IMG/VR virus record: IMGVR_UViG_3300042323_000333
Location: 1-39,113 of that record
Source: a virus
DNA: 39,113 nt
Strand: one strand, 5' to 3'
The translations under genes were made by a program, and so were the position numbers. The notes beneath the pieces are model-generated. The model did no database searches. It had not been told where the DNA came from and saw only the letters and a list, made by a program, of their open reading frames with translations. Below are positions 2,380 through 21,075 of this stretch, piece after piece (the first letter of the stretch is position 1; each line of letters begins with the position of its first letter).

Positions 2380-2424
2380 TTGGGGGTATTTATAAAAAAT
2401 AATGACGACACTATATTTATAGTT

Positions 2425-2883
2425 ATGGCAGATGGAACAACATACGGGTTAACTTTTCCTTTCAGAGATTCTTTTGATGGGAAATATTTAGATTTATCTA
2501 GTACAACCGAAAAAGAAATTAGAAACAACTTAATACATCTTTTACTAACAAGAAAAGGTTCAAGATATTATTTACCTGATTTTGGGACAAGATTATATGA
2601 ATTTCTTTTTGACCCATTAGATACACCTACATTTTCACAAATAGAATCTGAAATACGTGACGCTGTTGATTTGTATATGCCAAATTTAAAACTTACTAAT
2701 ATTAGTGTAACTGCGGCGTCTGATGGACAAGAAGATAAAGGGTCTTATATTAATGGTGAGAACGATAGAGTTTTTAGAGTACCTGGTATTGGTCAATTAG
2801 AACATACCGCTAAAGTTAGGATTGATTATATCATCACAGATGATGTTTTTAATACTAGCGATTTTGTAATAATTAATATATAA
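2425..2883 (+). CDS. Baseplate wedge protein, T4 gp25-like
   Basis: Predicted 152-residue baseplate wedge component of the gp25/GpW lysozyme-like family, which in contractile tails and related systems helps connect sheath to baseplate. The family pattern is clear: an N-terminal GLTFPF, an I-R-N-N-L-I-H-L-L-L-T-R-K-G-S-R helix, PDFGTRLYEFLFDP, then a C-terminal beta region. A TTG at 2380 would add 15 residues, but ATG 2425 gives the usual family length and start (MADGTTYGLTF). It is followed after 4 bases by the gp6-like gene, the order expected of a baseplate operon. No Shine-Dalgarno is visible; TATTTATA ends 3 bases before the ATG. Confidence 0.88.
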   Translation: MADGTTYGLTFPFRDSFDGKYLDLSSTTEKEIRNNLIHLLLTRKGSRYYLPDFGTRLYEFLFDPLDTPTFSQIESEIRDAVDLYMPNLKLTNISVTAASDGQEDKGSYINGENDRVFRVPGIGQLEHTAKVRIDYIITDDVFNTSDFVIINI

Positions 2884-2887
2884 TATT

Positions 2888-4726
2888 ATGGCTAATAAAA
2901 AGATTTCATACACAACAAGAGATTTCCAATCAATCAGGACGGAACTTATAAATTTTACTAAAACTTATTATCCTGAAACTGTTCAGAATTTTAATGACGC
3001 ATCGGTATTTTCGGTTTTATTAGACCTGAATGCTGCGGTAACAGACAACTTACAATTTAATATTGATAGAAGTGTTCAGGAGACTGTGTTACAATACGCT
3101 CAACAAAGGTCGTCAGTATATAATATTGCGAAAACTTATGGATTAAAAATACCGGGAATGAGACCGTCAGTTGCATTAATTGATTTCTCTATTACAGTAC
3201 CGGCTTATGGAGATAAAGAAGATTTAAGTTATTGTGGGGTATTAAGAAGAGGTTCTCAATTTAACGGAGCGGGACAAATTTTTGAAACGGTTTATGAAAT
3301 TGATTTTGCTTCACCAACTAATGCTGATGGGTTCCCAAATAGATTGAAAATTCCAAATTTTGATTCAAATAATAGAATACTTAATTACACAATTACTAAA
3401 CGAGAAACCGTTGTTAATGGTTTGACTAAAGTATTCAAAAAAGTTATAACACCTAATGATGTTAAACCTTTTTATGAATTATTCTTACCAGAAAAAAATG
3501 TATTAGGAATCACCGGGGTTTTATTAAAAGATGGAACTCAATATACTAACGTACCATCATCACAAGAATTTTTAGGAACTGATAATAAATGGTATGAAGT
3601 TCAAGCTTTAGCTCAAGATAGAGTTTTTGTTGAAGACCCAACAAAAGTATCAGATTCTCCGGGAATTAAAGTTGGGAAATATATTCAGACAAGTAATAAG
3701 TTTATTTCTGAATTTACGCCTGAAGGGTTCTTAAAAATGACATTCGGTGGTGGTAATCAATCCGCTGACGAACAATTAAGAGAATTCGCGGCAAACGGAT
3801 TTATGTTAAACCTAAACAAATACTCAAATAATTTAGGGTTAGGTAGTACTCTAAAGGCAAACACTACACTATTTGTTCAATACAGAGTTGGTGGTGGTAC
3901 CGGAAGTAACTTAGGTGTTGATACAATCACGCAAGTTGGTACAGTTTCTTTTTTTGTTAATGGACCGTCAGAAAGTATTAATACAACAGTCGTTAATTCA
4001 TTAAGATGTTCAAATGTTACTGCGGCAATTGGTGGGGCAGACTTCCCAACAACGGAAGAAGTAAGGAATATGGTTTCTTATAATTTTTCCGCACAAAATA
4101 GAGCGGTGACAGTTAATGATTATGAGTCAATTATTCGAACAATGCCGTCTCAATACGGAGCACCTGCTAAAGTTGCAATTACTGAACAAAATAACAAAAT
4201 TATTATTCAAATGTTATCGTATGACGAATCGGGGGCATTAACTGAAGTTGTTTCAAATACGTTAAAAAGTAATGTAGCTAATTACCTTTCAAATTATAGA
4301 ATGATTAATGATTACGTTTCAGTTCAAAGTGCTAATGTAATTGATTTAAGTGTAAACGTTGACGTTGTATTGGATAACTCTCAAAATCAAGGTACTGTTA
4401 TATCTCAGTTAATAACTGTAGTTTCTGACTATTTTAGTCCGTCAAACAGACAAATGGGTCAAAATGTTAACGTATCTGATTTAAAAAGATTATTACAAAA
4501 TGAAAATGGGGTTATTACAATTTCAGATGTACAATTTTTTAATAATGTTGGTGGACAATATTCATCATCTCAAACATCTCAAAGATATTCAGACCCAACA
4601 ACAAGACAAATTGAATTGATTGACGAAACAATTTATGCGGAACCTACACAAAGCTATCAAATCAGATATTCTAACAAAGATATTAATATTAGAGTTAAAA
4701 ATCTTAAAACAGTTAATTTCTCATAA
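2888..4726 (+). CDS. Baseplate wedge protein, T4 gp6 / baseplate J-like
   Basis: Predicted 612-residue baseplate wedge subunit. Near residues 30-95 it has the gp6-type helical region (NDASVFSVLLDLNAAVTDN, then QQRSSVYNIAKTYG). Around residues 385-430 it has the Baseplate_J signature, with TEEVRNMVSYNFSAQNRAVT followed by NDYESIIRTMP. It directly follows the gp25-like gene, as in T4-like and other contractile-tail systems. In T4, gp6 dimers form the wedge ring; that role here is inferred from family and context. The ATG at 2888 is well placed, with only AT-rich sequence upstream. Confidence 0.88.
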   Translation: MANKKISYTTRDFQSIRTELINFTKTYYPETVQNFNDASVFSVLLDLNAAVTDNLQFNIDRSVQETVLQYAQQRSSVYNIAKTYGLKIPGMRPSVALIDFSITVPAYGDKEDLSYCGVLRRGSQFNGAGQIFETVYEIDFASPTNADGFPNRLKIPNFDSNNRILNYTITKRETVVNGLTKVFKKVITPNDVKPFYELFLPEKNVLGITGVLLKDGTQYTNVPSSQEFLGTDNKWYEVQALAQDRVFVEDPTKVSDSPGIKVGKYIQTSNKFISEFTPEGFLKMTFGGGNQSADEQLREFAANGFMLNLNKYSNNLGLGSTLKANTTLFVQYRVGGGTGSNLGVDTITQVGTVSFFVNGPSESINTTVVNSLRCSNVTAAIGGADFPTTEEVRNMVSYNFSAQNRAVTVNDYESIIRTMPSQYGAPAKVAITEQNNKIIIQMLSYDESGALTEVVSNTLKSNVANYLSNYRMINDYVSVQSANVIDLSVNVDVVLDNSQNQGTVISQLITVVSDYFSPSNRQMGQNVNVSDLKRLLQNENGVITISDVQFFNNVGGQYSSSQTSQRYSDPTTRQIELIDETIYAEPTQSYQIRYSNKDINIRVKNLKTVNFS

Positions 4727-4798: not shown

Positions 4799-7700
4799 AT
4801 GTCAAATTCTTATAGAATAAGAACCCAAGTCGGTGTAGATACCTCATTAAAGGTATTAATTGACCAAGAGTTCGAATATTTAGAAATTCTATCCTTAAAA
4901 ATCCTGCAAAGTGATATCTACACACGACAATGTGCCGATTATGGTGTTGTTGTTGGTAGAGTCAGTGTAAACAATGGTTTTGGTCTTCCAAATGCTAAAG
5001 TTTCAATATTCATACCATTAGATTCTATTGATAAAGATGACCCTGTAGTGTCTAATATATATCCATACAGTAATTTGTATGATGTTAATGATGATGGATA
5101 TAGATATAATCTGTTACCTTACAAACCATCTTATAGTGCTCACATACCAACCGGTACTTTTTTTACTCGTCAAGATGTATTATTAAGCCCTGTTCTTGGT
5201 GAAATTTATGACAAATACTACAAATATAACGCGGTGACCAATCAAAGTGGTGACTATATGATATTTGGGGTTCCTGTAGGTTCTCACACTATTGTTGTTG
5301 ATGTTGATTTATCCGATATTGGTGAGTTCTCATTATCTCCTCAAGATTTAATTAGAATGGGTCGAGCGACCGAAAATCAAGTTGATGGAACTAAGTTTAG
5401 GTCTTCAACTAATTTAGGTGAATTACCTCAGATTGTTAGTTTTAAAAGAACTATAGAAATAGAACCATTATGGGGACAACCTGAAATATGTAATTTAGGT
5501 ATAACTAGAACAGATTTTGATTTAACAGGTGAGTCCAATATTGATATACGACCTACCGCTATTTTTATGGGGTCAATGGTTTCTGATTCTGACAGTAATT
5601 CGATTAGGCGAAATTGTAAACCAACTAGAGATTCAGGTTATTTATGTAATTTAATTACAGGACCTGGTGAAATATTGGCGATTAGACAAACTATTCAACA
5701 AGATAGTCTTGGAAGACCAATACTTGAATCGTATGGTTTAGAAGGGGGTGGTACAATTATAGATACTGACGGTACTTGGTTAGTGGATGTTCCTATGAAT
5801 TTAGATTATTATATAACTAATGAATTTGGGGAACAAGTATTATCTCCTGACCCAAATAAAGGTATACCAACAAAAGGTAAATATAGGTTTAAAGTTAAAT
5901 GGGCTCAATCTCCATCAGCTTCCGCTCAAACTAAAAGAGCTTATTATTTGGTTCCAAATATTAAAGAATGGACTGACGTTCAAAAATCATACGCGTTTAG
6001 TCTTGATTGGGATGATTATTGGGATTTGAGTGATGATACAATGTTACAAGAGGCGATAGACTGTAAAGATAAATTTTATCTTATGCAATATAATAAAGTT
6101 TATACTGTATCTCAATTTATTGGGGAACATCGTAGAGGTGGTTATCAACAATTTACAGGAATTAAAAACATATTGGATGAGGCGTGTGAAAGTGAGAATA
6201 ATAGGTATCCAACAAATGATGGGTATTTTAGATTTGATTTCTTTTATGTTTTATTTTCATTTTTAAGTATAATTTTAACACCAATATTTTTTGCGTTAAT
6301 ACTTCTCTTACATTTACTTTATTTTGTGATATGGATATTAAGAGTTGCTTATATACCTTATTTAATTATTTATTATGGGATAGCGTCGGTTAATAACTTT
6401 GTTGGTGCGTTTGCTGTAGGTTTTGGGGCAACATTTAGTGCGGGTATTTTTGCAATGGGAGTATTATATTTAATAATTGTCGCTCTTTTAATTTATATTT
6501 TAATTCAGTTATGGAAAATGAATTTAGTTGGTATTCAGGTACCAATATTAACATACCCTGATTGTAGTATGTGTTCTTGTAATCAAGGTCAAGGTATTGA
6601 TGAAAACCCGGATGAGGATAATGGTTTAGGTGATTTAGAGACCGGCAATGAGGATTTAGTTCCTTGTACTTATATTGTCGGTGACGCTCTTTCTTCATCA
6701 CCACTCAGTTTAGGTAAACCTGTAGTACAGTTATCATCGGTGGGTGGTTATAAAGTTCCAAAAACAGGAAATACATCAACTAATTTTATTTATACAACAG
6801 GTTTGGCACTCCCTTTAGGACCTTATGATTTAAAAGGTTCAGGAATTAGGTCAATGGTTGCAACTCAATTTGCTGGTAAACAATTTGATGGACAAACGGC
6901 TAATCCGGGGTATGGTGTCCCATCACCATATTCATTAAATAATGGGACTGAAAAATATACTTGGACAACAACCGCATTACCAATTGCGGATAGAATAAAT
7001 TTATTTAATGTTAAAGCAAAATATTTTGATGGAGGTCCAAGTAATCCTGGTGGAGGTGTTAATAGGATTAGTGTTAAATATGACCCAACAAGAAATCCGG
7101 GGACAAATCAAATACATTACGACAATACAGTTGTAATTCTTTGTGATAAGTCAACACTTAAAAAATACGTTTCAGGTCAAATGATTGCGTTCCAAAATCC
7201 ATCATATAGTAAAGACCCAAATTTAAATAGTCCTTTGATTAATAAGGCGGGTAATTATGCAATTACTGGTATAACAGTTACAGGATTGACAACAGTAACT
7301 GTTCCTTACGCTAATCCAAATGGTACAAGTGGAAATGTTCCCGGACCAACATATAATGTTTTTTTAACGGGTAATACTAAATATAATTACATTTATAGAT
7401 TCCCAACAGATGTTGAATACTTTCAAGTTATTACGGGTATGACTTACAGTACATTTACAGGGATGTGTAATCCATCAACGACTAGTGGGTTAGGTTATAC
7501 ATCATTAAATAACCGTTATATAAGTAATAAAACTACAATGTGGTCTATGCAACGTTTTAATGCTGAGACTGGTTTATCTATACCAACTCCAATGGTTTTA
7601 AAGGCTGCCGATTCAATTAAAAATCGGGATTTAATGGGTGTTATTATTTTAAATAGAGGTGTTGACCCATATACTGATAAAATAGAAATAGAATATGGTT

Positions 7701-10078
7701 TAGGTAAATTATTTGGTTTTACTAACGAAGGTGATAGGAAAATTACAACTAAATGTAGAATGAACATACCTATACAGGGTAAATTTTTAAACATAAGTCA
7801 CTCTAGTGGTGACTATCTGCAAACAACAGTTAATGGAGTTACAGCTGGTAGTAATGTTGAAACGGATTCGTACTCTAATACCGGCCAAAAATTATATTTC
7901 GATTCATTCTCATTTACACCTCAACAGGTTGATGTGTCAGGAATGACAGTACAGTATAATGAATTTATGCTTACCGCAGATACTTTAACACATTTGGCCG
8001 CGGGATATAGTGCGTTTAACTCCAATTTAGTTAGTTATTATTCAAAATTAGATAATAAATCAAATAGTTTTACTTTACAATGTAGTAATCAGGGGTCAGT
8101 AAATCCATCAATTACAACTGCGGGAAAACCCGTTCCAAATAGAGGGTTTTCTGTTTTAGGTGGTAGTAATTGGTTTACTAGGGTTCCAAGAATGTTACCA
8201 GCATCAAGCCCCGGAGGTACTTGGCAACCACCTTATTTGGTGATTAATTCCAGTCTTTTATATAATATAAACGGTAACAATGAGGGTTATGTTCCTAATG
8301 AAATTGTTGAAGGTTCGGCAATTATGAATTTAAGTGGTAATTATGAAAGGTTAACAGGTTATTGGGAATGTACAAGAAGAATTATTGGTTGTCTTAGATG
8401 GGAATATCGATGGAACACACCTGCAGACCCGGTAGACACGTTAATACCGTATTATTGGTCTCCAACATATAATTCTACCGGAAATACTTTAAATTTTAGT
8501 AAAGGAGTCTCAGGTAAACAACTAGTAATGAGAGGAGATAGATTACCAACATCAACAGTAACTCAAGAGTTTTGTTGTAATTCTTGGGTATTACAAAAGA
8601 ACGCAAATTTACAGGTTTATTTAATTCCTGAAAAAGGTACTGTTGGGATTTATTCTTCGGCAGGTTCATCTTCGGTGATTGGTGGAGGTAATTCAATTAG
8701 TTTAAATGACAATCAAACACAAATTAATGGTTTATTTAACACATTTACTTGTGGGGGGTCAGTTAATTTAGAGTGTTACGGTTGTTATACCCCACCAGGA
8801 ACAGTTAATTCAACAATTAAGATTGATTATGGAAGACAATATTCTGCTGGTAAACGAATATTTAATAAAGGATGTTATATTTTTATAACAAGAATGTTTT
8901 TATCTTTAGTTAGAGATTGGGAGTTGATGGCCGAATGGATTTCAAGAAATATGGTTATGTTAGGTGCTTGTAGAAATGTTTTTTCACACACGTTTAATAA
9001 TAATTGGGTTAATGGTAATTTATATGTTATGCCATTTAAAAATGATATTGTTGGTTATACGTCCCCAACATCTAATCCTCCAAACGCACCGATAAACGGA
9101 TACTGCCTTCAACCATCTTTTCCTGTTGTTTATCATATTGCGACTAAATCATTTTATTACAAATGTGCACCATATGACGGAGATGATTTCAGTGGTGATA
9201 TTAAATACCCTACCACTATGATTGATTTAGGTCCAAGAAGTTATTTTTTACAAGAAATTGTAATGTCTGATGAATATGATGGATATATTGCAAATAAATT
9301 AAATTCTTCTACTTTTTCACACGTTGATGAAATACTTAATTTATTTATAGTGAGTAGATTTTTAGATAATGGGTTTATACAAAATTTACTTGCCGGAGCA
9401 AACATTTTAGCTTATTTCCAACAAGAAGACGACCCAAGAGGAAATTTAAAAATTGATGCGGATTATGCTCAATTAATCTCAATTAATTCTGAACTAGGTG
9501 TTGCGGCATTTCAGTCATCAAATTACCCTAATAATTCTGACCCATCAAAACAGAACCCTATATATTTTGAATGTAATGGAGGTTATTTAGGTATTTTTTA
9601 TTCATCGGATACACAATTTAGAGATTATGTAACACCTAAAAGAACAATAATTGACCCAACGGCATCAATTAATAATCAATCCTGTGCTTTTAGTAATTTT
9701 CCGGTATATTCTCAAGTTGTACCATTATCTCAATGGGAAATTAAAACCGCTGGAAGTATTTTTGGTAATGAAGGGAATAATTGGAATTATGATACAATAT
9801 ATAAGTCAAAATATCAATCATTAGATAGATTAGATGTTAATTCAAGATATTTTAGGAATAATGGAATATCGGTTATTGATGATAAAGGATACATTTACGC
9901 GGTGGACGGTGCGGGTGACTTAAGTGCTGGTGTTTCAAATTGGACGCGTAATAACCCTGACTCTCAAATGGTAACTGTTGGTGCACCTTTCCATTTTTAT
10001 TTTGGATTAAAACGAGGTAAAACCGCTTATGATAGATTTAGAAGTAAATGGGTAAATACTGAAATAACAACAATATAA
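4799..10078 (+). CDS. Giant tail/baseplate-region protein with membrane-like segment
   Basis: 1,759 residues; I do not recognise a named family. Residues about 45-175 look like a carboxypeptidase-regulatory/CNA-B type beta-sandwich (GRVSVNNGFGLPNAKVSIFIP, later TNQSGDYMIFGVPVGSHTIVV). Residues about 478-572 are strikingly hydrophobic, enough for three or four membrane spans, and are followed by a cysteine cluster (CSMCSC) and an acidic stretch. The rest is Gly/Asn/Ser/Thr/Tyr-rich beta-type sequence typical of tail proteins, with many cysteines. It lies between the gp6-like gene and further structural genes and is read in the same direction, so a virion tail role is inferred. The start ATG sits immediately after a long hairpin. 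No signal peptide is seen at the N-terminus. Confidence 0.8.
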   Translation: MSNSYRIRTQVGVDTSLKVLIDQEFEYLEILSLKILQSDIYTRQCADYGVVVGRVSVNNGFGLPNAKVSIFIPLDSIDKDDPVVSNIYPYSNLYDVNDDGYRYNLLPYKPSYSAHIPTGTFFTRQDVLLSPVLGEIYDKYYKYNAVTNQSGDYMIFGVPVGSHTIVVDVDLSDIGEFSLSPQDLIRMGRATENQVDGTKFRSSTNLGELPQIVSFKRTIEIEPLWGQPEICNLGITRTDFDLTGESNIDIRPTAIFMGSMVSDSDSNSIRRNCKPTRDSGYLCNLITGPGEILAIRQTIQQDSLGRPILESYGLEGGGTIIDTDGTWLVDVPMNLDYYITNEFGEQVLSPDPNKGIPTKGKYRFKVKWAQSPSASAQTKRAYYLVPNIKEWTDVQKSYAFSLDWDDYWDLSDDTMLQEAIDCKDKFYLMQYNKVYTVSQFIGEHRRGGYQQFTGIKNILDEACESENNRYPTNDGYFRFDFFYVLFSFLSIILTPIFFALILLLHLLYFVIWILRVAYIPYLIIYYGIASVNNFVGAFAVGFGATFSAGIFAMGVLYLIIVALLIYILIQLWKMNLVGIQVPILTYPDCSMCSCNQGQGIDENPDEDNGLGDLETGNEDLVPCTYIVGDALSSSPLSLGKPVVQLSSVGGYKVPKTGNTSTNFIYTTGLALPLGPYDLKGSGIRSMVATQFAGKQFDGQTANPGYGVPSPYSLNNGTEKYTWTTTALPIADRINLFNVKAKYFDGGPSNPGGGVNRISVKYDPTRNPGTNQIHYDNTVVILCDKSTLKKYVSGQMIAFQNPSYSKDPNLNSPLINKAGNYAITGITVTGLTTVTVPYANPNGTSGNVPGPTYNVFLTGNTKYNYIYRFPTDVEYFQVITGMTYSTFTGMCNPSTTSGLGYTSLNNRYISNKTTMWSMQRFNAETGLSIPTPMVLKAADSIKNRDLMGVIILNRGVDPYTDKIEIEYGLGKLFGFTNEGDRKITTKCRMNIPIQGKFLNISHSSGDYLQTTVNGVTAGSNVETDSYSNTGQKLYFDSFSFTPQQVDVSGMTVQYNEFMLTADTLTHLAAGYSAFNSNLVSYYSKLDNKSNSFTLQCSNQGSVNPSITTAGKPVPNRGFSVLGGSNWFTRVPRMLPASSPGGTWQPPYLVINSSLLYNINGNNEGYVPNEIVEGSAIMNLSGNYERLTGYWECTRRIIGCLRWEYRWNTPADPVDTLIPYYWSPTYNSTGNTLNFSKGVSGKQLVMRGDRLPTSTVTQEFCCNSWVLQKNANLQVYLIPEKGTVGIYSSAGSSSVIGGGNSISLNDNQTQINGLFNTFTCGGSVNLECYGCYTPPGTVNSTIKIDYGRQYSAGKRIFNKGCYIFITRMFLSLVRDWELMAEWISRNMVMLGACRNVFSHTFNNNWVNGNLYVMPFKNDIVGYTSPTSNPPNAPINGYCLQPSFPVVYHIATKSFYYKCAPYDGDDFSGDIKYPTTMIDLGPRSYFLQEIVMSDEYDGYIANKLNSSTFSHVDEILNLFIVSRFLDNGFIQNLLAGANILAYFQQEDDPRGNLKIDADYAQLISINSELGVAAFQSSNYPNNSDPSKQNPIYFECNGGYLGIFYSSDTQFRDYVTPKRTIIDPTASINNQSCAFSNFPVYSQVVPLSQWEIKTAGSIFGNEGNNWNYDTIYKSKYQSLDRLDVNSRYFRNNGISVIDDKGYIYAVDGAGDLSAGVSNWTRNNPDSQMVTVGAPFHFYFGLKRGKTAYDRFRSKWVNTEITTI

Positions 10079-10079
10079 A

Positions 10080-11936
10080 ATGGGTAATAGAGATGAAATA
10101 AGAATAGTGTTAGGTTCGTTGCGTTATAAAACCGCAACGAATACTAATTTATCGATACCGACACCATTAGTTCAAACTGCGAAAACTTTACAGGAATTCG
10201 ATAGAAGTATTGATATTAATTTAGCTCAATTGTTTAAAGATGAACGAGAAAAATCCACAATTTTCAGACCGGTATGTAAATTTGCGTTAATATTTGACAA
10301 TGCGTATTCAGGTAGTTGTCCATATACACCGTTAGAAAATAATTTGTATTATACCAATGAAACTCAAAATACTATTGACCAATGTAAACAAAATCCGGAT
10401 GCTATTGATTGGAATGGTTACCCTCAGTATAATGAATTTGATTTTATAAGAAATGATTATAATATTTCCGGATATACAACACCTGATAGTAACGGTATGG
10501 TTCATATTAATTTTGTGAGTAAAAGTGCTTCAACCTATAATTGGAATCATTTTATTAGTTATCCTTATTTAAATGTACCGGGTAAACTATTACAATATTT
10601 TGACGAAACAACAAGTCCTCCGACATTTAATCAATTTAGAGCTTTTGAAGGCATTCCATTTATAGTTAGGGTTGACGACAGTAATAGTAATAGTATTGTA
10701 CCGGGAAATGATTTAATGATGAATGGTAATCGTATTATTGAGTTTAGATGTCCAATTAAACACGGATTATCGGTTGGGGAATATGTTAAGATTAAACTTA
10801 GAGCAACCGGTTTCGAAGAAACATTTCAAGTTTATTCTTTAGGTAATGGATTACCGGGATACGACGAATATGTTTTTAATATTTACAATATTGGTTACGT
10901 TTCTAATCCATTTTCTCAAGATGATTATGGTAATTTTATAAGAATTATAAATAATGAAAACGCTGATGATACAATGTCAGAATATTATGTTGTTAGACAT
11001 AAAATAATAACAAATGTTGGCGACGCTGCTTTAACTAATGCGGGGTTTGAACAAAACATATTTGGCGACAAAAGAAAATTTGAAAGTTCTGCATATACAC
11101 CAAATAAAATTAGTCGAGTTTCATATAAAGAAGGTGCAAAATCTTATTCATTGTCGTTTAATAAAGATATTGACGTTAGTGATTTAAGAGATAATCATAA
11201 AAGACCAATTAATGAACTATATGTTACAACAGTATGGAAAGGTTATTTTGGGTTAATGTTCAATGATAATGTTAAATTAAAACAAGGTTTTGAGTTTAAC
11301 TTACCGTTGAGAAATTCATTATCACCAAATCCTTGGTGGCAAACAACATTATCTAATTTTGTAGGGGCTACGATAGATAATTACACAGGCCCTAATTACA
11401 ATACTAGTAATCCGGGTACAATTCAGTTTAATTATGTTAGGTCGCTTAAAAGTGGTGACACAATTGATGGAGGTTTTTATGAGTGGAATAATTTTGAACA
11501 AAAAGAAAGATTGTTAAGTGAAAATTATCATAAAATAACATACAATGATAGTGTGTTTACTGTACCTACAAGACCTACAAATAATCTTAATGTGGGTAGA
11601 TATGGTTATTATTATCAACCACATAGGAAACTTACCCTTAGAGTTTTTTCTGATTATATTGAAACGGGTGATATAAGAAATACTGTGGATATTCCGGACT
11701 ATTCATATTTTTCAACAACATATAATTCATTTATATGGAGAGACATATATGAATATGGGTTTAAAGATGCTGAAGGTAATGGTGTTGATTATCCATTTTT
11801 AAATAGTACTCATTATCCTTATGGTAATTTTATTTTTAGAATAATACCGGAAGGAACTAATTATAGAGAGAACGATATGAACTATTACGCAACACTTTAT
11901 GGTGCTGCAGAACCTAAAAACGATGAATGTGAATAA
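10080..11936 (+). CDS. Putative tail/baseplate structural protein
   Basis: 618 residues, family not recognised. The ATG lies one base after the preceding stop, indicating translational coupling with the giant protein. The protein is soluble-looking, rich in Asn, Tyr, Phe and Gly, with no transmembrane segment and an N-terminus MGNRDEIRIVLGSLRYKTAT. The composition and tight packing between baseplate-type genes support a virion structural role, but nothing more specific can be read from the sequence. Confidence 0.75.
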   Translation: MGNRDEIRIVLGSLRYKTATNTNLSIPTPLVQTAKTLQEFDRSIDINLAQLFKDEREKSTIFRPVCKFALIFDNAYSGSCPYTPLENNLYYTNETQNTIDQCKQNPDAIDWNGYPQYNEFDFIRNDYNISGYTTPDSNGMVHINFVSKSASTYNWNHFISYPYLNVPGKLLQYFDETTSPPTFNQFRAFEGIPFIVRVDDSNSNSIVPGNDLMMNGNRIIEFRCPIKHGLSVGEYVKIKLRATGFEETFQVYSLGNGLPGYDEYVFNIYNIGYVSNPFSQDDYGNFIRIINNENADDTMSEYYVVRHKIITNVGDAALTNAGFEQNIFGDKRKFESSAYTPNKISRVSYKEGAKSYSLSFNKDIDVSDLRDNHKRPINELYVTTVWKGYFGLMFNDNVKLKQGFEFNLPLRNSLSPNPWWQTTLSNFVGATIDNYTGPNYNTSNPGTIQFNYVRSLKSGDTIDGGFYEWNNFEQKERLLSENYHKITYNDSVFTVPTRPTNNLNVGRYGYYYQPHRKLTLRVFSDYIETGDIRNTVDIPDYSYFSTTYNSFIWRDIYEYGFKDAEGNGVDYPFLNSTHYPYGNFIFRIIPEGTNYRENDMNYYATLYGAAEPKNDECE

Positions 11937-12810
11937 TAAATTTAAATTTACACTACCAAAAGGTGACGACAAATATATTAATCTACCTGTAGAAATCAAA
12001 TGGGATTTTTTGGGTAGAACAGATGCTGTGGATGAATATCAAAAAACTGCGGTTGAACGAGTTACAGGAGTTGCTGATGATTTTGAGATATTAAGATTTG
12101 CTCACGCATCGCATCCTAATGGTTCAAGAACTGATGTCAATTATGATTTCCATTTTTTTAGTGTGTTACTACCTGATGATAATGGTGATTTACAACCAAC
12201 AGTTCCACCAAACCCATCTTTAGATATAACAACAGCAGTTCCAACTGATTGGAAAACTAGTTATATTCCGGAAGGATTTACAACTTATGACTTATATTAT
12301 TATACACAACCTTTTACAAAATCATTTTTTAAATTGGATTTTTATGATACTAAAGATGCAACAACACAAACTAATTATTTTACAGTAATTATACCGGTTC
12401 AACAAGGTTATTCCGTTACCGGAATAACATCTTCTTTGATGCCACCGGTCAATATTAAAACACCGTCATTTAAATTAGATTATGTTGGTGATAAGGAAGG
12501 GTTCTTCTTGTATTGGTTAAGGAAAAAGAATTTTTTAAACATTAATCCTAACCCAACAAATACTACGGAAACTTTTTATATGACTGCTAAGTTTTTTGAT
12601 GCTAGATTAGGGATTTTTGTTAAAATGATGACAACACCTCAAGTATTACCGTTAGTTCCGTCATTATTTCAATTTAAACCGGAAAACTTTTTCTATTATA
12701 AAGTTGTGTTGGATTATACCGATTACACTTATAAAATATTTGATAATATTAGTGGTAATAGAGTTGGTGACGTAAGTTCAATAAAATGGTATGAATATAT
12801 TAATCCTTAA
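11923..12810 (+). CDS. Putative tail structural protein
   Basis: 295 residues from ATG 11923 (MNVNNKFKFTLPKGDDKYINL). An upstream in-frame ATG at 11899 exists but would overlap the previous gene more deeply. The chosen start overlaps the preceding gene by 14 bases. There is no recognisable domain; it is a beta-rich, aromatic-rich sequence with no signal peptide or membrane span. It is embedded in the same co-directional late block, so a structural role is inferred from context alone. Confidence 0.7.
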   Translation: MNVNNKFKFTLPKGDDKYINLPVEIKWDFLGRTDAVDEYQKTAVERVTGVADDFEILRFAHASHPNGSRTDVNYDFHFFSVLLPDDNGDLQPTVPPNPSLDITTAVPTDWKTSYIPEGFTTYDLYYYTQPFTKSFFKLDFYDTKDATTQTNYFTVIIPVQQGYSVTGITSSLMPPVNIKTPSFKLDYVGDKEGFFLYWLRKKNFLNINPNPTNTTETFYMTAKFFDARLGIFVKMMTTPQVLPLVPSLFQFKPENFFYYKVVLDYTDYTYKIFDNISGNRVGDVSSIKWYEYINP

Positions 12811-12812
12811 TT

Positions 12813-13979
12813 ATGATAGATAAAAATTATAGTATAAAGATTTCACCTGGTGTAATTAGTGGGGACGTATTCAAAGTTAATTATAATGGTACCACTATTA
12901 CGGGAACATCATATTCTAAGGAATGTTGTGTCCTTCAATCAAAAATGATTGAAATAATTGTAACAGGTTCAACATATGCGTATTCCGCAATGACAGAAGT
13001 ATTATCAGGAGGTACAGGGGGAACTTCATTATTAACCGGTTTAACAGTACCAATTCTACTTACAGAAAACACGGTTGATATTGGGTATTATTCAGTGTTT
13101 GACGGTATGGTTGTACAAAAAGACACTATGTTAAATTTTTTATTTTCCGCAACAACTTTAGAATCCCAAAGAGTTTATTTTTATAATACATCGGATGTTG
13201 AATTTAAGAAATACTTACAGTTTTCAACATATACTGTTGATTGGGGGGACGGTTCATTACCAGAACCTATAACATCGACCGCTCAAATACATCACGATTA
13301 TACGGCAACGGGTGAAACTCAAATTAAATTGACAGGTTTGAGTCCTTGGGGAACAAATACTATAACTAAAACAATTAATCTTCCGTTTACCGGAACAACT
13401 ATTGATAACCCAAACGGTGAGGCTTTTTTTACACCTATGGGTGGTAATTGGCAAAATATATTAGTTCCTTATAAATATATTTTTAGTGGTGATAATAATT
13501 GTGATTCAACAACTCAAGATATTACTCAATTTACAACAGTACCATTTTTAATTACAGGGTATACTACATCATCATTAACGGATTTAAAACAATATGGTCC
13601 TACACCTTATTCGGTAACTACATACGATATAACCGGAAACACTGGATTTGTTGGTAGATATTTAGGTGTGTTTGAAGATGGGTTATATACAGCCTATACA
13701 ATTAATGATATTACCTACTATGATTATAATAATGGTACGACACTTTTCATAGTTGAATCATCAGGTTTGACTACTGATACAGTAATTTGTCAACCAATTG
13801 TGAAAAATGAGCTATTATTAGGAATAATTGATGAAGCAGAAGTGCAAAGCAATGTATTTATAGAACGAGGGAAGAACTCAGCCTTAGAGAGTATTGAAAG
13901 ACTTGGTGAGGTTAACAGTATCGGTAGTTTAGAAAAGTACGGATATAAATTTTTTAACATAATTAACGCGACAACATAA
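12813..13979 (+). CDS. Putative tail protein with PKD-like domain
   Basis: 388 residues. At about residues 135-185 there is a PKD-like beta-sandwich signature, VDWGDGS followed by HHDYTATGETQIKLTG. The same WGDG signature appears in two minus-strand fibre genes of this window. The remainder is Thr/Gly/Tyr-rich beta sequence of no recognised family. The gene starts 2 bases after the previous stop and ends one base before the next start. PKD-like modules usually mediate protein-protein or protein-glycan contacts, so a decoration or fibre-attachment role is plausible but unproven. Confidence 0.75.
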   Translation: MIDKNYSIKISPGVISGDVFKVNYNGTTITGTSYSKECCVLQSKMIEIIVTGSTYAYSAMTEVLSGGTGGTSLLTGLTVPILLTENTVDIGYYSVFDGMVVQKDTMLNFLFSATTLESQRVYFYNTSDVEFKKYLQFSTYTVDWGDGSLPEPITSTAQIHHDYTATGETQIKLTGLSPWGTNTITKTINLPFTGTTIDNPNGEAFFTPMGGNWQNILVPYKYIFSGDNNCDSTTQDITQFTTVPFLITGYTTSSLTDLKQYGPTPYSVTTYDITGNTGFVGRYLGVFEDGLYTAYTINDITYYDYNNGTTLFIVESSGLTTDTVICQPIVKNELLLGIIDEAEVQSNVFIERGKNSALESIERLGEVNSIGSLEKYGYKFFNIINATT

Positions 13980-13980
13980 G

Positions 13981-14889
13981 ATGGCAACAGGAACCTATGG
14001 AACGATAAGACCGGCAGACGTAAGTCCGGAAGATGTGGAGATAATATTGAATTATACTCCAACAAGAGATGAAACAAACAACTTTGTGTTAACAAAATTG
14101 GATGCGTTATCTGTATTAACACCTTACTACAATAATGATACGACAGGGGTTAACTCTAATATTGAGATTTTAGGGGGATTATACAATTTAAGACTGCCTG
14201 CGGAACAATTTAATAAAATTGGTATATATACCTTATTTCTTAGACCGGCTCAAATTAGAACCACTATATTGGATTGTGGGGTGTTATCTTCATTACCTAA
14301 TGTTAAAGGTTTAGTGATTGATTTAAATTCGGTTCCATCAAACTATAGAAACAAATTTGTTAGTCAAGGTTTAGTTGGATTCAGAATTGAATATTTAAAT
14401 TCAGACGGTACAAAAATACCTAATTTTTTTAGAATAATTACATCATCATTCTTTTGTGAACCTGTAGTTCAAAATTTAACAAACTCATCACAAAAGGCGA
14501 TTAGATATCGTTATACTAACAACAATACTAATTTATTGTTTTGTACTGTATCACCATCTTCGGCGCCAACAAATAATCCAAACGCGACTCCTTATATTGG
14601 ACAGCCAAATCAAAATATTATAATTACAAATACTTTCTTTAATCCAATAAGTTTAGATATTGAAATTGCTGAACACGATATTTCGACATTAGCAATTGCT
14701 CTTTATGGTAATCAAACTAAATCAATTGATGATGGTATCTATACTCTATACGATACAAGTAATAATATTTACAAACAATACAACTTATACGAAATTAGAG
14801 ACCAATTTAATAGTTTATTATATGAAGTTAGACAAGATAGAGGAAATAATATTGATTTTAGTAAAAACTTTACAAATATAACACAATAA
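13981..14889 (+). CDS. Putative tail structural protein
   Basis: 302 residues, MATGTYGTIRPADVSPEDVE at the N-terminus, with no recognised family. The N-terminal 45 residues look helical and acidic; the rest is beta-type and Asn/Thr/Ile-rich. Its stop overlaps the next start by one base (TAATG), indicating coupling to the following 1,002-residue protein. Nothing suggests an enzyme. A baseplate or fibre-connector role is inferred from position. Confidence 0.7.
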   Translation: MATGTYGTIRPADVSPEDVEIILNYTPTRDETNNFVLTKLDALSVLTPYYNNDTTGVNSNIEILGGLYNLRLPAEQFNKIGIYTLFLRPAQIRTTILDCGVLSSLPNVKGLVIDLNSVPSNYRNKFVSQGLVGFRIEYLNSDGTKIPNFFRIITSSFFCEPVVQNLTNSSQKAIRYRYTNNNTNLLFCTVSPSSAPTNNPNATPYIGQPNQNIIITNTFFNPISLDIEIAEHDISTLAIALYGNQTKSIDDGIYTLYDTSNNIYKQYNLYEIRDQFNSLLYEVRQDRGNNIDFSKNFTNITQ

Positions 14890-17800
14890 TGGCAAATCAA
14901 AATTTTACTTGTCCACCACAACCGGCAACAGGTGCGGGTACTTTCTCAGATAACTTAGTTGGGTTCCAATTAGTTGCTGGGGGAGGGTTAACGCAAGGTA
15001 ATTTTGAGTTTACCACCGCCTTAAATGAAAAGGTTAATAGAACTTTTACAACAGGAACATTTTCAAGTCCTGTAAATTTAGAGGGATTAGGGCTTTCAAG
15101 TGTTGACCAATCAAGGGCTATTTTTGAAAATAATTTTAAAGTTTATCCTAATTTTGACTTAACTCAAGTTACTAATTTTACTACATATGGGTCAATGGTT
15201 AAAAGGATTTCAACATCGGTTGAAACTATTATTAGTAATTTCCCCGCGGCTTTAGAAATGACATTTATGTCTGAAAATTATACTACGGGTGATACAGCAA
15301 CTAATATAGTTTATAATCCAATTACAATGGAAACTAGTTTTGATTTAGTTGTTGATAGAATTAGAAACCCATTTGATATTGATTTTTCAGTTAATGCAAC
15401 TAGAAATCTACAGTTGAGAGAAATACAAGTTTCCGAGTTACGTAATATGACGACACAATACGCTAAGTATTCGTTATATTATAATGGTATGGGATATAAT
15501 GTGGTACAGATTGTTCCGACAAATACAACATCTTCAGGTACTCTTACGATTTATGTGACGGGTAATCCATTTTCCGGTAATACAAGTACAACTGATGATA
15601 TAGTTATTAGACCAAATGACCACGAAGTTAATGCGGTGTTTAGTGTTAAATTTGACGAAGTTCAACGATTTTTATTGAATAGAAATATATCACCAATATA
15701 TACAGCAACTTTCCAAGTTCCAATGGAAACGGATGACGGGGCCTATTATATTAACAATGAAAATGTTACTTGGCCTTTATATGGTAATTGGAATTTAGAT
15801 ATTTTAACTAATGCGTTTACGGTTTATTTGACTACATTAAACGATATTAGTGCGTCTTTTGATGGTTACCAAACAAATTTAGTGTCGAGATTTTTGACTA
15901 CAGATTCGTTTAGAGAATTTGACACTACAGACCAAAAGATTCAAAAAGTGTTACAAATATATGGTAGAAGTTTTGATGAAACTAAAAAATTCATAAACGC
16001 TTTGGCTTATATGAATTCTGTGAATTATAATTCAGGGAATGATATTCCATCTCAATTATTAAAAAATCTAGCTCAAACATTAGGGTGGGCAACAAACATT
16101 ACTCCAATATCAAATGATAGTTTTTTAGACTCTGTTTTTGGACAAAAAAATAGTGATACTTCGTCATTTACTGGGGTTGCTCAATCTCAGACTCCGGATG
16201 AGTTAAATTACAATTATTATAATAATTTAATTCTTAATTCCGCTTACTTATTCAAGTCAAAAGGTACTAGAAAATCAATTGAAACGTTAATGAGAATGAT
16301 TGGTGCTCCGGATGCTTTAGTTGAGTTTAATGAGTATGTTTATTTAGCTGACCAAAAAATTAATATAAATGAGTTCAATACTCAATTTGCGAACATCTCA
16401 GGAGGCACATACTCAAAGAGTATCCCTGTTGTAGACCCATCATACACTTTTAGAATTCAAAACATTGAATATAGTGGTTTCACAACAACATCCCAATTAA
16501 CAGATTCAAATGTAAGTCTTGATGATTACCCTATAGATAACTTAGGTTATCCAAAATCACCCGTTAATACGGACTCTTATTTTTTTCAAATGGGTAGTGG
16601 TTGGTTTGAGTCAACACCTAAACATAGGTCGCTAGAACAAGTTGATTTAACAACTAGTGTGTTTACAGGGTCTAATCCTAACTATCAAACTAAATTAACA
16701 CCATTTAGTTATGGTCAAGATTTCTTAAACGTTTATAGACAATTACCTTACACTACATTAGGGTTTAATTTAAAACCGGTAGTTGATAATAATAAAAGTT
16801 GGGTTGATACAGAAGTAGGTCTTAGGTCTAATTTTGATGGTGGACTTGATTCATTTTATAATACGGATAATGATAATTTAGTAATTAACGTTAAAAACAT
16901 TGACTTGTTTTTGAATCCGGGTCAGGGGTTATTATACGATGTTTGGTATATGTCAAACCAATTTAATTACCCAATACCTAATGAAGGTTTAAATTATGTT
17001 CCACCAACTCATTGTGACCCTAATCCGGTGTCGATTTATCCTAGTAAAGGTGATATTGATTGGACGGTTATTAATCCGCAACCAAAGAATAAATCATTCT
17101 TTGAGTTTGCTCAAACATTTTGGAAAAATACTATTAATGTTAGAAATAGACAATTTGCGACAGATGGTGGTACGAGTGGTTATCCAACATTACAATCAAT
17201 CTATTGGAGATACTTAGAGTCTGAAAATATTGCGGGTATTGCTAACGATAACTTCACATATGAAACTATGACACAATATGTTGATGGTTTGGGTGATTAT
17301 TGGATTCGTTTGGTAGAACAAATGATACCTGCAAGTACTATTTGGAATACGGGGGTTAAATTAGAAAATTCAATTTTCCACAGACAAAAATTTGTTTGGA
17401 GAAGACAAAGAGGATGTCAATTTGTACCGGTTCCTTGTAGACCTTGTGAATTAACTACCACAATATATAATACCGATTGTCCCCGTCAGTTAAAAGAATG
17501 TAACGTTTACCCGTTTGGTGGTAGGGTATCTAATTTTAATGGTGTTTTAAATTCTGTTATTAATTCTTATACAGTAGATAATGAATTGGTTGATTGTGAA
17601 AGTAGTAGTGTGATATCCCAATGGTATGTTAATGTTACGTTTAATGACACATTAATAATAAATGATTGGTTCTTTAGTGGTTCTGCGGTTAATCAAATTT
17701 ATAGTGCACCAACTAACGAAAAATGGGTTACATCGTTAAGATACTCTTTAAATGGTTTACTCACAATGGGGCTTGATTATTATTTTAACGAGACTTATAC

Positions 17801-17897
17801 GACCGTAACAATATTTAACACAAACTGTGCGGATAAAGACTTAGGATGGAATATAAAAATAGATGTAGGAATAAACTTTACAATTAGTTGCTCATAA
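14889..17897 (+). CDS. Large baseplate/tail protein, tail-protein-I/gp7-like region
   Basis: 1,002 residues. The middle part (about residues 350-490) resembles the helical part of distal tail proteins of the P2 gpI / T4 gp7 type: QKVLQIYGRSFDETKKF, then SQLLKNLAQTLGW, then LFKSKGTRKSIETLMRMIGAP with a glutamate-rich strand after it. This match is by eye and moderate. The C-terminal 130 residues are cysteine-rich (CQFVPVPCRPCELTT and more). The gene overlaps the previous one by a base and is followed 4 bases later by the SprB-repeat fibre, so it is a good candidate for the baseplate platform to which that fibre attaches. Confidence 0.7.
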   Translation: MANQNFTCPPQPATGAGTFSDNLVGFQLVAGGGLTQGNFEFTTALNEKVNRTFTTGTFSSPVNLEGLGLSSVDQSRAIFENNFKVYPNFDLTQVTNFTTYGSMVKRISTSVETIISNFPAALEMTFMSENYTTGDTATNIVYNPITMETSFDLVVDRIRNPFDIDFSVNATRNLQLREIQVSELRNMTTQYAKYSLYYNGMGYNVVQIVPTNTTSSGTLTIYVTGNPFSGNTSTTDDIVIRPNDHEVNAVFSVKFDEVQRFLLNRNISPIYTATFQVPMETDDGAYYINNENVTWPLYGNWNLDILTNAFTVYLTTLNDISASFDGYQTNLVSRFLTTDSFREFDTTDQKIQKVLQIYGRSFDETKKFINALAYMNSVNYNSGNDIPSQLLKNLAQTLGWATNITPISNDSFLDSVFGQKNSDTSSFTGVAQSQTPDELNYNYYNNLILNSAYLFKSKGTRKSIETLMRMIGAPDALVEFNEYVYLADQKININEFNTQFANISGGTYSKSIPVVDPSYTFRIQNIEYSGFTTTSQLTDSNVSLDDYPIDNLGYPKSPVNTDSYFFQMGSGWFESTPKHRSLEQVDLTTSVFTGSNPNYQTKLTPFSYGQDFLNVYRQLPYTTLGFNLKPVVDNNKSWVDTEVGLRSNFDGGLDSFYNTDNDNLVINVKNIDLFLNPGQGLLYDVWYMSNQFNYPIPNEGLNYVPPTHCDPNPVSIYPSKGDIDWTVINPQPKNKSFFEFAQTFWKNTINVRNRQFATDGGTSGYPTLQSIYWRYLESENIAGIANDNFTYETMTQYVDGLGDYWIRLVEQMIPASTIWNTGVKLENSIFHRQKFVWRRQRGCQFVPVPCRPCELTTTIYNTDCPRQLKECNVYPFGGRVSNFNGVLNSVINSYTVDNELVDCESSSVISQWYVNVTFNDTLIINDWFFSGSAVNQIYSAPTNEKWVTSLRYSLNGLLTMGLDYYFNETYTTVTIFNTNCADKDLGWNIKIDVGINFTISCS

Positions 17898-17901
17898 TAA
17901 A

Positions 17902-20900
17902 ATGGCTTGTGAAATAACATATAATATTAGTATAACAGGTGATTGTACTAACTCTTTTTCGGGGGGATTTACTATAGATGTAATAACAGGTACAACATCT
18001 CCACCGTTTACTATACAATGGATAACCCCAATTACTGATGTAATACCACTGGGTGTTGATGTTTATACTTATGAAAAACTATTCTTAAGTGCTGGTACCT
18101 ATACATTTAATATAATAGATAGTTGTTCTCCAAATACTGTGTTACCTGTAAATGTTTTAATTTCTAGTGGTACTTGTACTTCGATAGATAGTCATACTGA
18201 TACTTTATGTGGATTAAATAATGGGTCAATAACTGCCTCTACAACATATTCTTACGGAAATGCAACATTCTCTCTATATGAAAATACTTTTGGGTTAATT
18301 GAGTCGGGGTCATCTTATTCAAATGTTACTGAATTTACGTCATTAAGTGCAGGAACATACTATGTTATTGCGGATGACGGTGCGGGATGTACAGGGATGT
18401 CAGAGACTTGTATAATTAAAACTTCAACTACAATTAATTATGATTTGTTTGTGGTTAACGATGCGGGTTGTACTACAAATTCAGGTAAAATATTTATTAG
18501 TGGTTTAACAGGTAACCCACCGTACACTTATTTATGGTCAAATGGGGGTTTTGGTGATTCATTAACTGGATTGACAGAAGGAATATATGATGTTACTGTT
18601 ACGGATAATTCGGGATGTAGTGTTTTAAAAAGTGCGACAGTCGAATTGGTGAATCCGGTATCGATTGGTTCATTGTTCGTGACTCAACCAAGTTGTTTTG
18701 GGAGTGATGGTGAAGTGACCGTAATTGTTGTAGACGGAACCGCCCCGTTTTATTATTTAGCATCAAATGGTGAATCAATTGTTACGTTTGATAGAACTGT
18801 TATTTTTACAAGTTTGGCTCCGGGTAATTTTACTGTTGAAGTGACAGACGCGGGGTTATGTAAAGCAACATCGTCAACAACATTATTAACTCCTGCAGGA
18901 ATCTCAAGTGTTTTTGTTAATACTACAAATTCAAAATGTAATGATTTATCAGGTATATTAGGGCCAATAACCGTATTAGGTGGAACTCCACCATATACAT
19001 ATACCTTAACAGATTCAAATGGTAATATAACCACAAATAGTGCAAATAGTAATGTTTGGAAATTTGAAAATTTATCCTCAGGAAATTATACAATAAGTGT
19101 TACTGATTTAGGTCCTTGTACTTATTCAGGTACTTATACGATTAATAACGAAGTCCTATTTGGTTTAACTACGACAACTACCGGAACAACTGGTGGTAAT
19201 GAGAATGGTAGTGTTACTTTATATATTACTAGTGGGGGGACACCACCATATAGATATAGTATTAACTCACAATTAATAACAACTTCGGTAACCTCGTATA
19301 CGTTTAATAATTTAGCCTCAGGTAATTATCTTGCAAGTGTTGTTGATAATACTAAATGTTATCAATCAACACCATTTACAATTGGTGCGTCAAAACAGGT
19401 TGATTTTCATTTATTAGGTAGTGATTTTGCGGTAAATTCTGATGGTAGTATATCGGCTTATGTTTTAGACGGGGAACCACCGTTCCAATTTATATGGTCA
19501 AATGGTGAAACCGGAATGACGGTAAATAATTTATCAGCAGGTACTTACTCACTTAGAGTTGTGGATTCAGGTGGATTTTCAAAAATAAAACAAATTCTAA
19601 TTCCTGGTGTAACTACTTATAATGGTTCAGGTACATATAGTGTTTGTAGTGGTGATTTAACATTCGGTAAAAATCCTGTTATTGTCAAAACAGGTCCTCG
19701 AGAAATGTTAAATGAAGGTTTTTATGATTTAACCTCAGGGTTTACAAATTGTGTTTTAAATAGTGCGATTTTTACTCTTAGTGTTACTGCAGGAACTTTT
19801 GTCACGTCTAGTGTGATTTATACAGGATATACTTTAGGTGTAAATGGATACCCAACCGATGATATTTTTTATGGTTGGGTTAGAACATTAATTGAAAGTT
19901 CACCACAAATTGGTGAGGGTAATGTTGAAACTTATCCGGATAATACAATTTATGTTAAAACTAATTGTGACCCGGAATCGTTGCATAACACAACGGTAAT
20001 AGTTAGTACAACTATTAATTATGATATTTCTTGTGAACATTGTACACCAGTTCCAAGTGTGTCTCCAACACAAACACCAACAGTAACACCAACAGTAACA
20101 CCAACAGTAACACAAACACCAACAATGACTCCAACATACACACCAACCGTGACTCAAACTCCGACCAATACTCCAACACCGACAATGACAGATACACCAG
20201 ATGCGTCAGTAACTCCAACACCAACAGTGACACCAACACCGGATGCGTCAGTTACGCCAACACCGACAATGACTCAAACGCCAACAATGACGCCAACTAT
20301 TACTTTAAGTCCAACACAAACGCCAACAATGACGCCAACAATGACGCCAACAATGACAATGACGCCAACAATGACAATGACAATGACACCGACTAACACA
20401 TCAACACCTACACCATCACCATTAACAACATATTATGCTTATAGACAGTGTGGTGGAGTCAAAGAGTCACTTGTGATTCTTCAATCTGTATTGGCGATAA
20501 ACGGAATGGTATTAGGAGATACAATATTATTTACTGACGGAAAAGAAAATAAAGCTTGTTGGGAATTAATTGGTAATACATCAACTTTAAACCAATACTT
20601 AGGTATGTATGTTAATACATATGATTCGGGTACTGTTAATTATTTTACAAGTATTGATGGTGAGATATATGATTGTGAAAAATGTCTTGATACAATTAAA
20701 TCATTAACTCTTGTGGATGTTAAAGAATGTAAATTAGATTTTAAATTTTCTAATAAATGTAGAGGAGAGGGTCAAGGTAAGGTTTTATTAAATAATGTTA
20801 ATGGTACTACTGTTATTTATTCTTGGGATAATAATTTAATTACTACTTATTCTCAATCATATAATGTAGGTCAGGGTGATACAATTACTATTCTGATGAA

Positions 20901-21075
20901 TTTTATTGGGGAAAATTATTCTTTAATTCAAGACATTAAAACATATAATGGTTTAGGTGAACCTGTTGTTCTAAATGACACAATTAATGGAATAACTAAT
21001 GATTATTCATATTCGTATAAAGTTGGTTGTGGTAAAGAAAATAATACGTTATCATTAAGTCACATATGTAAATAA
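17902..21075 (+). CDS. SprB-repeat tail fibre/adhesin with Thr-Pro linker
   Basis: 1,057 residues. About the first 570 residues hold some seven tandem SprB-type repeats of roughly 75 residues, each with a DGSI/NGSV-type strand, then PPYTYLWSNG or a variant, then LSAGTYTVTVTD or a variant ending near a cysteine. SprB repeats are known from the Flavobacterium gliding adhesin SprB. A cysteine-containing domain follows (570-712), then a low-complexity Thr-Pro linker (about 713-838), then a distinct C-terminal domain (about 840-1057) starting near YAYRQCGG. There is no signal peptide or type IX sorting tail, fitting a virion protein rather than a secreted one. It is last in the plus-strand tail operon and ends at a strong terminator. 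The C-terminal domain is the likely receptor-binding tip (inference). Confidence 0.82.
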   Translation: MACEITYNISITGDCTNSFSGGFTIDVITGTTSPPFTIQWITPITDVIPLGVDVYTYEKLFLSAGTYTFNIIDSCSPNTVLPVNVLISSGTCTSIDSHTDTLCGLNNGSITASTTYSYGNATFSLYENTFGLIESGSSYSNVTEFTSLSAGTYYVIADDGAGCTGMSETCIIKTSTTINYDLFVVNDAGCTTNSGKIFISGLTGNPPYTYLWSNGGFGDSLTGLTEGIYDVTVTDNSGCSVLKSATVELVNPVSIGSLFVTQPSCFGSDGEVTVIVVDGTAPFYYLASNGESIVTFDRTVIFTSLAPGNFTVEVTDAGLCKATSSTTLLTPAGISSVFVNTTNSKCNDLSGILGPITVLGGTPPYTYTLTDSNGNITTNSANSNVWKFENLSSGNYTISVTDLGPCTYSGTYTINNEVLFGLTTTTTGTTGGNENGSVTLYITSGGTPPYRYSINSQLITTSVTSYTFNNLASGNYLASVVDNTKCYQSTPFTIGASKQVDFHLLGSDFAVNSDGSISAYVLDGEPPFQFIWSNGETGMTVNNLSAGTYSLRVVDSGGFSKIKQILIPGVTTYNGSGTYSVCSGDLTFGKNPVIVKTGPREMLNEGFYDLTSGFTNCVLNSAIFTLSVTAGTFVTSSVIYTGYTLGVNGYPTDDIFYGWVRTLIESSPQIGEGNVETYPDNTIYVKTNCDPESLHNTTVIVSTTINYDISCEHCTPVPSVSPTQTPTVTPTVTPTVTQTPTMTPTYTPTVTQTPTNTPTPTMTDTPDASVTPTPTVTPTPDASVTPTPTMTQTPTMTPTITLSPTQTPTMTPTMTPTMTMTPTMTMTMTPTNTSTPTPSPLTTYYAYRQCGGVKESLVILQSVLAINGMVLGDTILFTDGKENKACWELIGNTSTLNQYLGMYVNTYDSGTVNYFTSIDGEIYDCEKCLDTIKSLTLVDVKECKLDFKFSNKCRGEGQGKVLLNNVNGTTVIYSWDNNLITTYSQSYNVGQGDTITILMNFIGENYSLIQDIKTYNGLGEPVVLNDTINGITNDYSYSYKVGCGKENNTLSLSHICK
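17910..19610 (+). repeat. Tandem SprB-type protein repeats
   Basis: About seven consecutive copies of a roughly 75-codon unit. Copies 3 to 7 are the clearest; the first two are degenerate. Similarity is strong in protein (PPYTYLWSNG, AGTYxVxVxD) but weak in DNA, indicating old, diverged duplications. Confidence 0.75.
20050..20418 (+). repeat. Low-complexity Thr-Pro coding repeat
   Basis: Imperfect tandem arrays of short units such as CCAACAGTAACA and ACAATGACGCCA encode the PTxTPTxTP linker of the fibre. One longer unit ([14 protein letters not shown] type) is nearly duplicated around 20198-20260. Such tracts are prone to slippage and unequal recombination. Confidence 0.85.

Follow-up and report, generated by a model that had tools for sequence, protein, structure and literature searches.

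Tail gene cluster and P0001

The 39,113-base stretch of IMG/VR virus DNA analyzed here (the window) carries a contractile-tail gene cluster. A gene on the plus strand at 2380–2883 is predicted to encode a gp25-like baseplate wedge protein (phrog_261, E = 3e-16; PF04965, E = 9e-12), and it is followed at 2888–4726, on the same strand, by a gene predicted to encode a gp6/Baseplate_J-like wedge protein (phrog_219, E = 6e-26; PF04865, E = 1e-7). Based on these adjacent gp25 and gp6/Baseplate_J homologs (2380–4726), the cluster is a T4-type contractile baseplate cluster. Next in order is an intact plus-strand open reading frame (4799–10078) encoding a 1,759-aa protein, here called P0001, and then come further tail genes. 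Five of these downstream genes (10080–17897, plus strand), with products of 618, 303, 388, 302, and 1,002 aa, are conserved and syntenic in all three groups of homologous loci described below.

The nearest known phages by gp6 are Flavobacterium phage immuto, Microcystis phage Mel-JY01, and uncultured LR756508 (27–28% identity). In these three phages, gp6 is followed by homologs (1,265–1,400 aa) of the window's 1,002-aa protein (14889–17897), which includes a K-G-T motif region; the relationship was detected with hhalign (E = 1.6e-10). Sequence searches did not find P0001 in any of the three. Because the nearest phages by gp6 share only the homolog of the 1,002-aa gene and not P0001, P0001 appears to be an extra, clade-specific protein of the tail cluster; of the two, the 1,002-aa gene is the likelier to encode a general wedge protein.

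The P0001 gene lies directly after gp6, in the slot of gene 7 in T4. P0001 and T4 gp7 have this slot in common, but no sequence relation between them was detected: Pfam and PHROG gave no match indicating homology to gp7 or P2 gpI (Tail_P2_I), and PF09684 was not above the cut-off in five related genomes. We discarded the identification of P0001 as gp7 by homology, given the lack of a profile match and the fact that the 1,002-aa gene is the shared one. No Pfam or PHROG family matched P0001 above the cut-off, and a profile search of solved structures returned only a weak ABC-transporter match, located on the hydrophobic stretch described below (E = 0.085). Gene order suggests that P0001 belongs to the baseplate region and to the virion.

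AlphaFold predicted a beta-rich conserved module at the N-terminus of P0001 (residues 1–450; 4799–6148, plus strand; pLDDT mostly 80–97) with features of a CnaB/transthyretin-like sandwich. Foldseek aligned this module to sandwiches of the pilin, SdrD, and PA1324 type (E = 4e-5 to 2e-3, with low TM-scores), which weakly suggests a partial resemblance to the CnaB/transthyretin-like sandwiches of pilins and adhesins. A Foldseek search against BFVD identified one homologous uncharacterized phage protein, A0A8S5LA66 (E = 2e-48).

Other tail-region proteins in the window contain Pro/Thr repeats (PTPTVTPT...) as linkers (17902–21075, 21708–24122, and 30877–33420), and the protein encoded at 17902–21075 additionally contains SprB repeats (PF13573, E = 3e-18). 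A 741-aa protein encoded on the minus strand at 28637–30862 has repeated units and a BspA-like appearance. A 250-aa protein encoded at 37108–37860 consists mostly of E-V-I-K-E-V repeat units and is probably a coiled coil.

Hydrophobic segment and predicted hairpin

Within P0001, residues 478–572 (6230–6514, plus strand) form a hydrophobic segment, just where a sequence-only reading of the DNA had placed one of about 95 residues (6229–6515). Three of its 95 residues are charged, and it includes one histidine. All 19-residue windows of P0001 with a Kyte-Doolittle mean ≥1.6 start at residues 479–561, and the best elsewhere in the protein reaches 1.24. The best 95-residue window has a mean of 1.89, whereas the maximum in 2,000 shuffles was 1.11. 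Single 19-residue peaks as high as those of P0001 do arise in shuffles (maximum 3.02); because such lone peaks are matched by chance, the case for the segment is made by the length of the hydrophobic run together with its conservation. We discarded a frameshift or a chance hydrophobic run as an explanation, since the reading frame is intact, the segment is conserved, and its hydrophobicity lies beyond the shuffles. A second, weaker hydrophobic patch of P0001 occurs at residues 1358–1396 (8870–8986; GCYIFITRMFLSLVRDWELM), where Kyte-Doolittle values of 1.4–2.05 are reached in several relatives.

The hydrophobicity of the segment is at the level of membrane helices. On the additive 2005 scale, the best 21-residue insertion sums are −4.3 (at residue 549) and −3.3 (at 484), compared with +8.5 for the best elsewhere. 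Four non-overlapping windows can be drawn, two strongly membrane-grade (2.8 at 497 and 2.9 at 551) and two weak (1.5 at 476 and 1.6 at 523). The three or four spans initially proposed can therefore be drawn, but only two of them are strong, and AlphaFold gives two helices.

AlphaFold produced a poor model from an alignment of 40 similar sequences (pLDDT 43). A second model of residues 1–612, with 150 diverse sequences in the alignment, reached a pLDDT of 84.9 and a pTM of 0.71. Modeling of residues 450–620 had been suggested as a check on the segment; over the part of that range covered, the model shows a helical hairpin after the beta-rich module, but not four spans. The first hydrophobic helix is long (residues 481–539; 6239–6415, plus strand; pLDDT mostly 76–97), and the second is shorter (residues 548–573; 6440–6517, plus strand; pLDDT 76–97). 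With 59 residues, the first helix exceeds the thickness of a membrane.

The first helix has a polar stripe at residues 483, 487, 490, 494, 498, 505, 508, 512, and 515, which includes a histidine (His505; 6311–6313, plus strand) that is invariant in all 83 distinct sequences of the window's clade. The hydropathy moment of this helix lies beyond all 5,000 shuffles (p < 0.0002), whereas its conservation moment is not significant (p = 0.37). The stripe is heptad-like, with about two of every seven positions polar and the rest hydrophobic, which is the reverse of a soluble coiled coil. Because the polarity pattern is opposite to that of a soluble coiled coil, we infer that this helix lies in hydrophobic surroundings, either lipid or protein.

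Cysteines occur on both sides of the hairpin. Cys463 (6185–6187, plus strand) lies on its N-terminal side, and a Cys589-X2-Cys592-X-Cys594 motif (6563–6580, plus strand) lies on its C-terminal side; each is present in 83/83 distinct clade sequences. The motif is the CSMCSC cluster noted previously from the letters of the DNA, and the acidic stretch said to follow it is also present, as a linker of residues 595–620 (6581–6658, plus strand). This linker is probably disordered, judging from its sequence and from pLDDT values <50 from residue 598 to the model end at 612; the AlphaFold model has low confidence at the cysteine cluster and beyond it. Together, Cys463 and the CxxCxC motif may form a site that pins both ends of the hairpin excursion.

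Conservation among homologs

We scanned IMG/VR with P0001 and identified 150 stretches that encode a homolog; a profile scan identified at least 583. Two matches in genome assemblies led to two more distant groups of loci, group 2 (L150 and L152–L230; 79 loci) and group 3 (L151 and L231–L310). The window's own group is a single clade in the tree, with a support of 1.0 and a long stem. All three groups have the N-terminal ~460 residues in common, and total length ranges from ~950 to 3,000 residues. A TBLASTN search of 50,697 phage records with four members of the family gave no match.

One group 2 record, QCKH01000004.1 (L150), is filed under a Prochlorococcus single-cell genome; over the region it is identical to IMGVR_UViG_2716884754_000002, and it is phage DNA inside a GTDB genome. 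The phage tail cluster also occurs on a 287-kb contig of the Bacteroidales MAG RUG12352.

A search for homologs with the same insert, also suggested from the sequence-only reading, identified a hydrophobic helix at the same place in essentially all of 308 homologs from IMG/VR contigs. Peak hydropathy is ≥1.6 in essentially all of them (L207 ends before the hydrophobic segment) and ≥2.0 in 94%; within the window's clade it is 2.5–3.4. By comparison, a peak ≥1.6 occurs in 0–3% of the members of six neighboring families (gp6 and the 618-, 303-, 388-, 302-, and 1,002-aa families). The share for gp25 is 10%, as measured on stop-to-stop frames that possibly include upstream sequence. Among the large proteins listed for two related records (272 and 309 kb), P0001 ranks first in hydrophobicity.

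The number of potential spans varies. In the window's clade, the distance from Asp480 to a Y-P-D-C motif ranges from 52 to 115 residues, and among the 52 members counted, 8, 22, 20, and 2 have one, two, three, and four membrane-grade windows, respectively; eleven sequences without the Y-P-D-C motif as searched were excluded. The second helix is absent or charged in some clade members: L133 and L134 have a single helix of ~36 residues, and the second helix of L106 and L140 is charged. Group 3 has a single helix, often with Lys or Arg. A polytopic integral membrane domain would be expected to conserve its span number, which here ranges from one to four within the clade. It is implausible that the remaining ~1,000 residues lie on opposite sides of a membrane in closely related proteins, which makes a fixed polytopic domain unlikely on these sequences. 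The polar stripe of the first helix, with its invariant His505, likewise speaks against such a domain. A re-entrant wedge, a hairpin, or else a buried bundle suits the data better.

Genes upstream of P0001

Loci of groups 2 and 3 have a short gene between gp6 and the P0001 homolog; it encodes 72–172 aa, lies directly upstream of the homolog, and often overlaps its start. The product of the short gene begins with M-x-C-x-C or a similar motif and continues with a strongly hydrophobic segment (hairpin). This MxCxC gene was identified in 127/128 distinct loci of the sister groups with enough upstream sequence but in 0/92 loci of the window's clade, which instead has Cys463 and CxxCxC flanking an enlarged hairpin. 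A cysteine near position 463 together with CxxCxC occurs in 1/53 sequences of group 2 and 0/67 of group 3. An example of the gene is L150:9579–9992, with equivalents in L152–L310; its product had no family match above the cut-off. We did not find an MxCxC protein elsewhere in the two long clade records (272 and 309 kb).

A profile comparison found no sequence relation between the MxCxC protein and the clade hairpin (13% probability over 18 columns), and we discarded, as unsupported, a physical fusion of the one into the other. The clade hairpin may still be a functional replacement for the MxCxC protein.

In 25/92 clade loci, the slot between gp6 and P0001 instead holds a gene whose ~300-aa product has a hydrophobic segment at its N-terminus and a motif of the GHSxG type (for example, L032:7006–7932, which encodes a ~308-aa protein with GHSIG). 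Pfam alpha/beta-hydrolase matches to this protein were below the cut-off.

Probable relationship to moraphages

Moraphages are described in a published survey as large, mostly freshwater phages with predicted Bacteroidota hosts and genomes of 200–307 kb; gp25 and gp6 belong to their conserved core set, they have a family B polymerase, and some have DnaK and glutamine synthetase (PMC12619734). The survey identified no tape measure protein (PMC12619734). All five related records analyzed here have a family B polymerase (PF00136), one of the five has glutamine synthetase, and the 272-kb record has the start of a DnaK-like protein. The window's group resembles the moraphages as described and probably belongs to their lineage.

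In the 272-kb relative, two large tail genes were considered as tape measure candidates; they had no family match above the cut-off, and their products are rich in beta-type residues. P0001 itself was considered and discarded as a tape measure protein, since it is beta-rich and, in the AlphaFold model of the N-terminal module, only the two hairpin helices are long.

Comparison with known systems

The tape measure protein is the usual carrier of membrane-spanning tail segments, and its hydrophobic segments have been proposed to help DNA across the inner membrane. Such segments are found in the tape measure proteins of many siphophages, for example TP901-1 (PMC5099701). P0001 resembles tape measure proteins in being a tail protein with membrane-grade segments; however, those are long helical proteins that lie within the tube, whereas P0001 is beta-rich and encoded among wedge genes.

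The following comparisons are of described roles. Cis13, from the thylakoid-anchored contractile injection systems (tCIS) of Anabaena, is a trimeric, fiber-like protein bound to the contractile baseplate; a helix at its C-terminus penetrates the membrane and fixes the machine there (PMC8894136). The hairpin of P0001 may act in a similar way but is internal to a 1,759-aa phage chain. CisA of the Streptomyces CIS, a membrane protein, recruits a contractile machine to the membrane and may be compared with the MxCxC gene of the sister groups; unlike P0001, it is a separate membrane adaptor outside the complex (PMC12237407). Hbor_38620 of haloarchaeal systems is a separate protein and only a putative anchor (PMC11566945). 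The statement that no described baseplate protein has this layout holds for phages as far as we found; outside phages, Cis13 is a known example of a baseplate-bound protein with a helix that penetrates a membrane (PMC8894136). We found no description of a phage baseplate-region protein with an internal hydrophobic hairpin in the literature searched, which covered only a minor part of the subscription journals. Membrane-anchored contractile machines are already known (tCIS Cis13, CisA), and the phage-internal hairpin would be a variant of these. What is new here is the contrast between an MxCxC gene in the sister groups and an enlarged hairpin with invariant cysteines in the window's clade.

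Possible roles of the hairpin

Engagement of a bacterial membrane is the most likely function of the hairpin; we consider its chances about even, with use in infection and use in assembly taken jointly. A hydrophobic helical hairpin would project from the N-terminal beta module of P0001, with the four cysteines (463, 589, 592, and 594) holding the ends of the excursion together by metal or disulfides. Both large soluble parts of P0001 would thereby stay on one side of the membrane, and several copies around the tail end might dip into it as a re-entrant wedge, not as fixed spans. In infection, the hairpin would serve for docking or for sealing the host membrane around the tube, and we modestly favor this use over a tether in assembly. 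The membrane role first suggested for the segment remains plausible, since its hydrophobicity is extreme and family-wide and the adjacent gene often codes for a small membrane protein or for a hydrolase-like protein with a membrane anchor, but a ready-made polytopic pore is disfavored by the span number of one to four in the clade and by the Lys and Arg in the group 3 helix.

Counted in support of membrane engagement are hydrophobicity beyond the shuffles, conservation across the 308 homologs against 0–3% in the neighboring families, the top rank of P0001 in hydrophobicity among the large proteins of the 272- and 309-kb records, the two confident AlphaFold helices, the reversed coiled-coil stripe, the distribution of the MxCxC gene, the N-terminally membrane-anchored GHSxG-type protein in 25/92 clade loci, and the lack of an identified tape measure protein in the survey of what look like the same phages (PMC12619734). 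Counted against it are the variable span count, the charged second helices, the Lys and Arg of group 3, and the length of the 59-residue helix. A rival reading is that the helices form an ordinary, very hydrophobic bundle buried between baseplate subunits and never contact a membrane. In its favor, the number of hydrophobic helices varies, the single helix of group 3 has Lys and Arg scattered along it, the polar stripe is heptad-like, and the 59-residue helix is predicted to be straight. Against it, the segment has only 3 charges in 95 residues and clade hydropathy peaks of 2.5–3.4, these phages do without such a feature in their other large tail proteins, and small membrane proteins co-occur; we regard such a bundle as possible but less likely than membrane engagement.

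Use in assembly would mean that P0001 enters the inner membrane of the producing cell as it is translated and that baseplates form at this site, to be released before or at lysis; in our view this is unlikely. A hydrophobic hairpin exposed on a cytoplasmic protein might be expected to attract membrane-insertion machinery, the sister groups encode a membrane protein immediately upstream, and contractile systems held on membranes by transmembrane helices or adaptors are known (PMC8894136, PMC12237407, PMC11566945). No known phage baseplate is built in this way, as far as we found, however, and P0001 would need to leave the membrane. More improbable still is a role outside the virion, in the infected cell's envelope (for example, in exclusion of other phages or in lysis). 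P0001 would then sit in the membrane with external parts that vary, but in essentially every locus of the three groups its gene is flanked by gp25/gp6 and further tail genes, its folds are beta-rich and tail-like, and its N-terminus has no evident signal peptide.

A more specific form of membrane engagement in infection is that the baseplate's built-in, cysteine-pinned hairpin took over the job of the MxCxC protein and enters the host membrane at infection, replacing tape-measure segments. This is speculative, and we think it improbable as a whole. Little is understood of how DNA crosses the inner membrane once the tube of a contractile phage has pierced the outer layers. The hairpin is near-universal in a baseplate-region protein of hundreds of uncultured large phages, and the clean one-for-one swap with a gene for a small membrane protein (127/128 against 0/92 loci) offers two concrete genes to test, in a lineage without a recognized tape measure protein. 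If the more specific reading above is true, a large uncultured clade of contractile-tailed phages would have a membrane-inserting device inside its baseplate.
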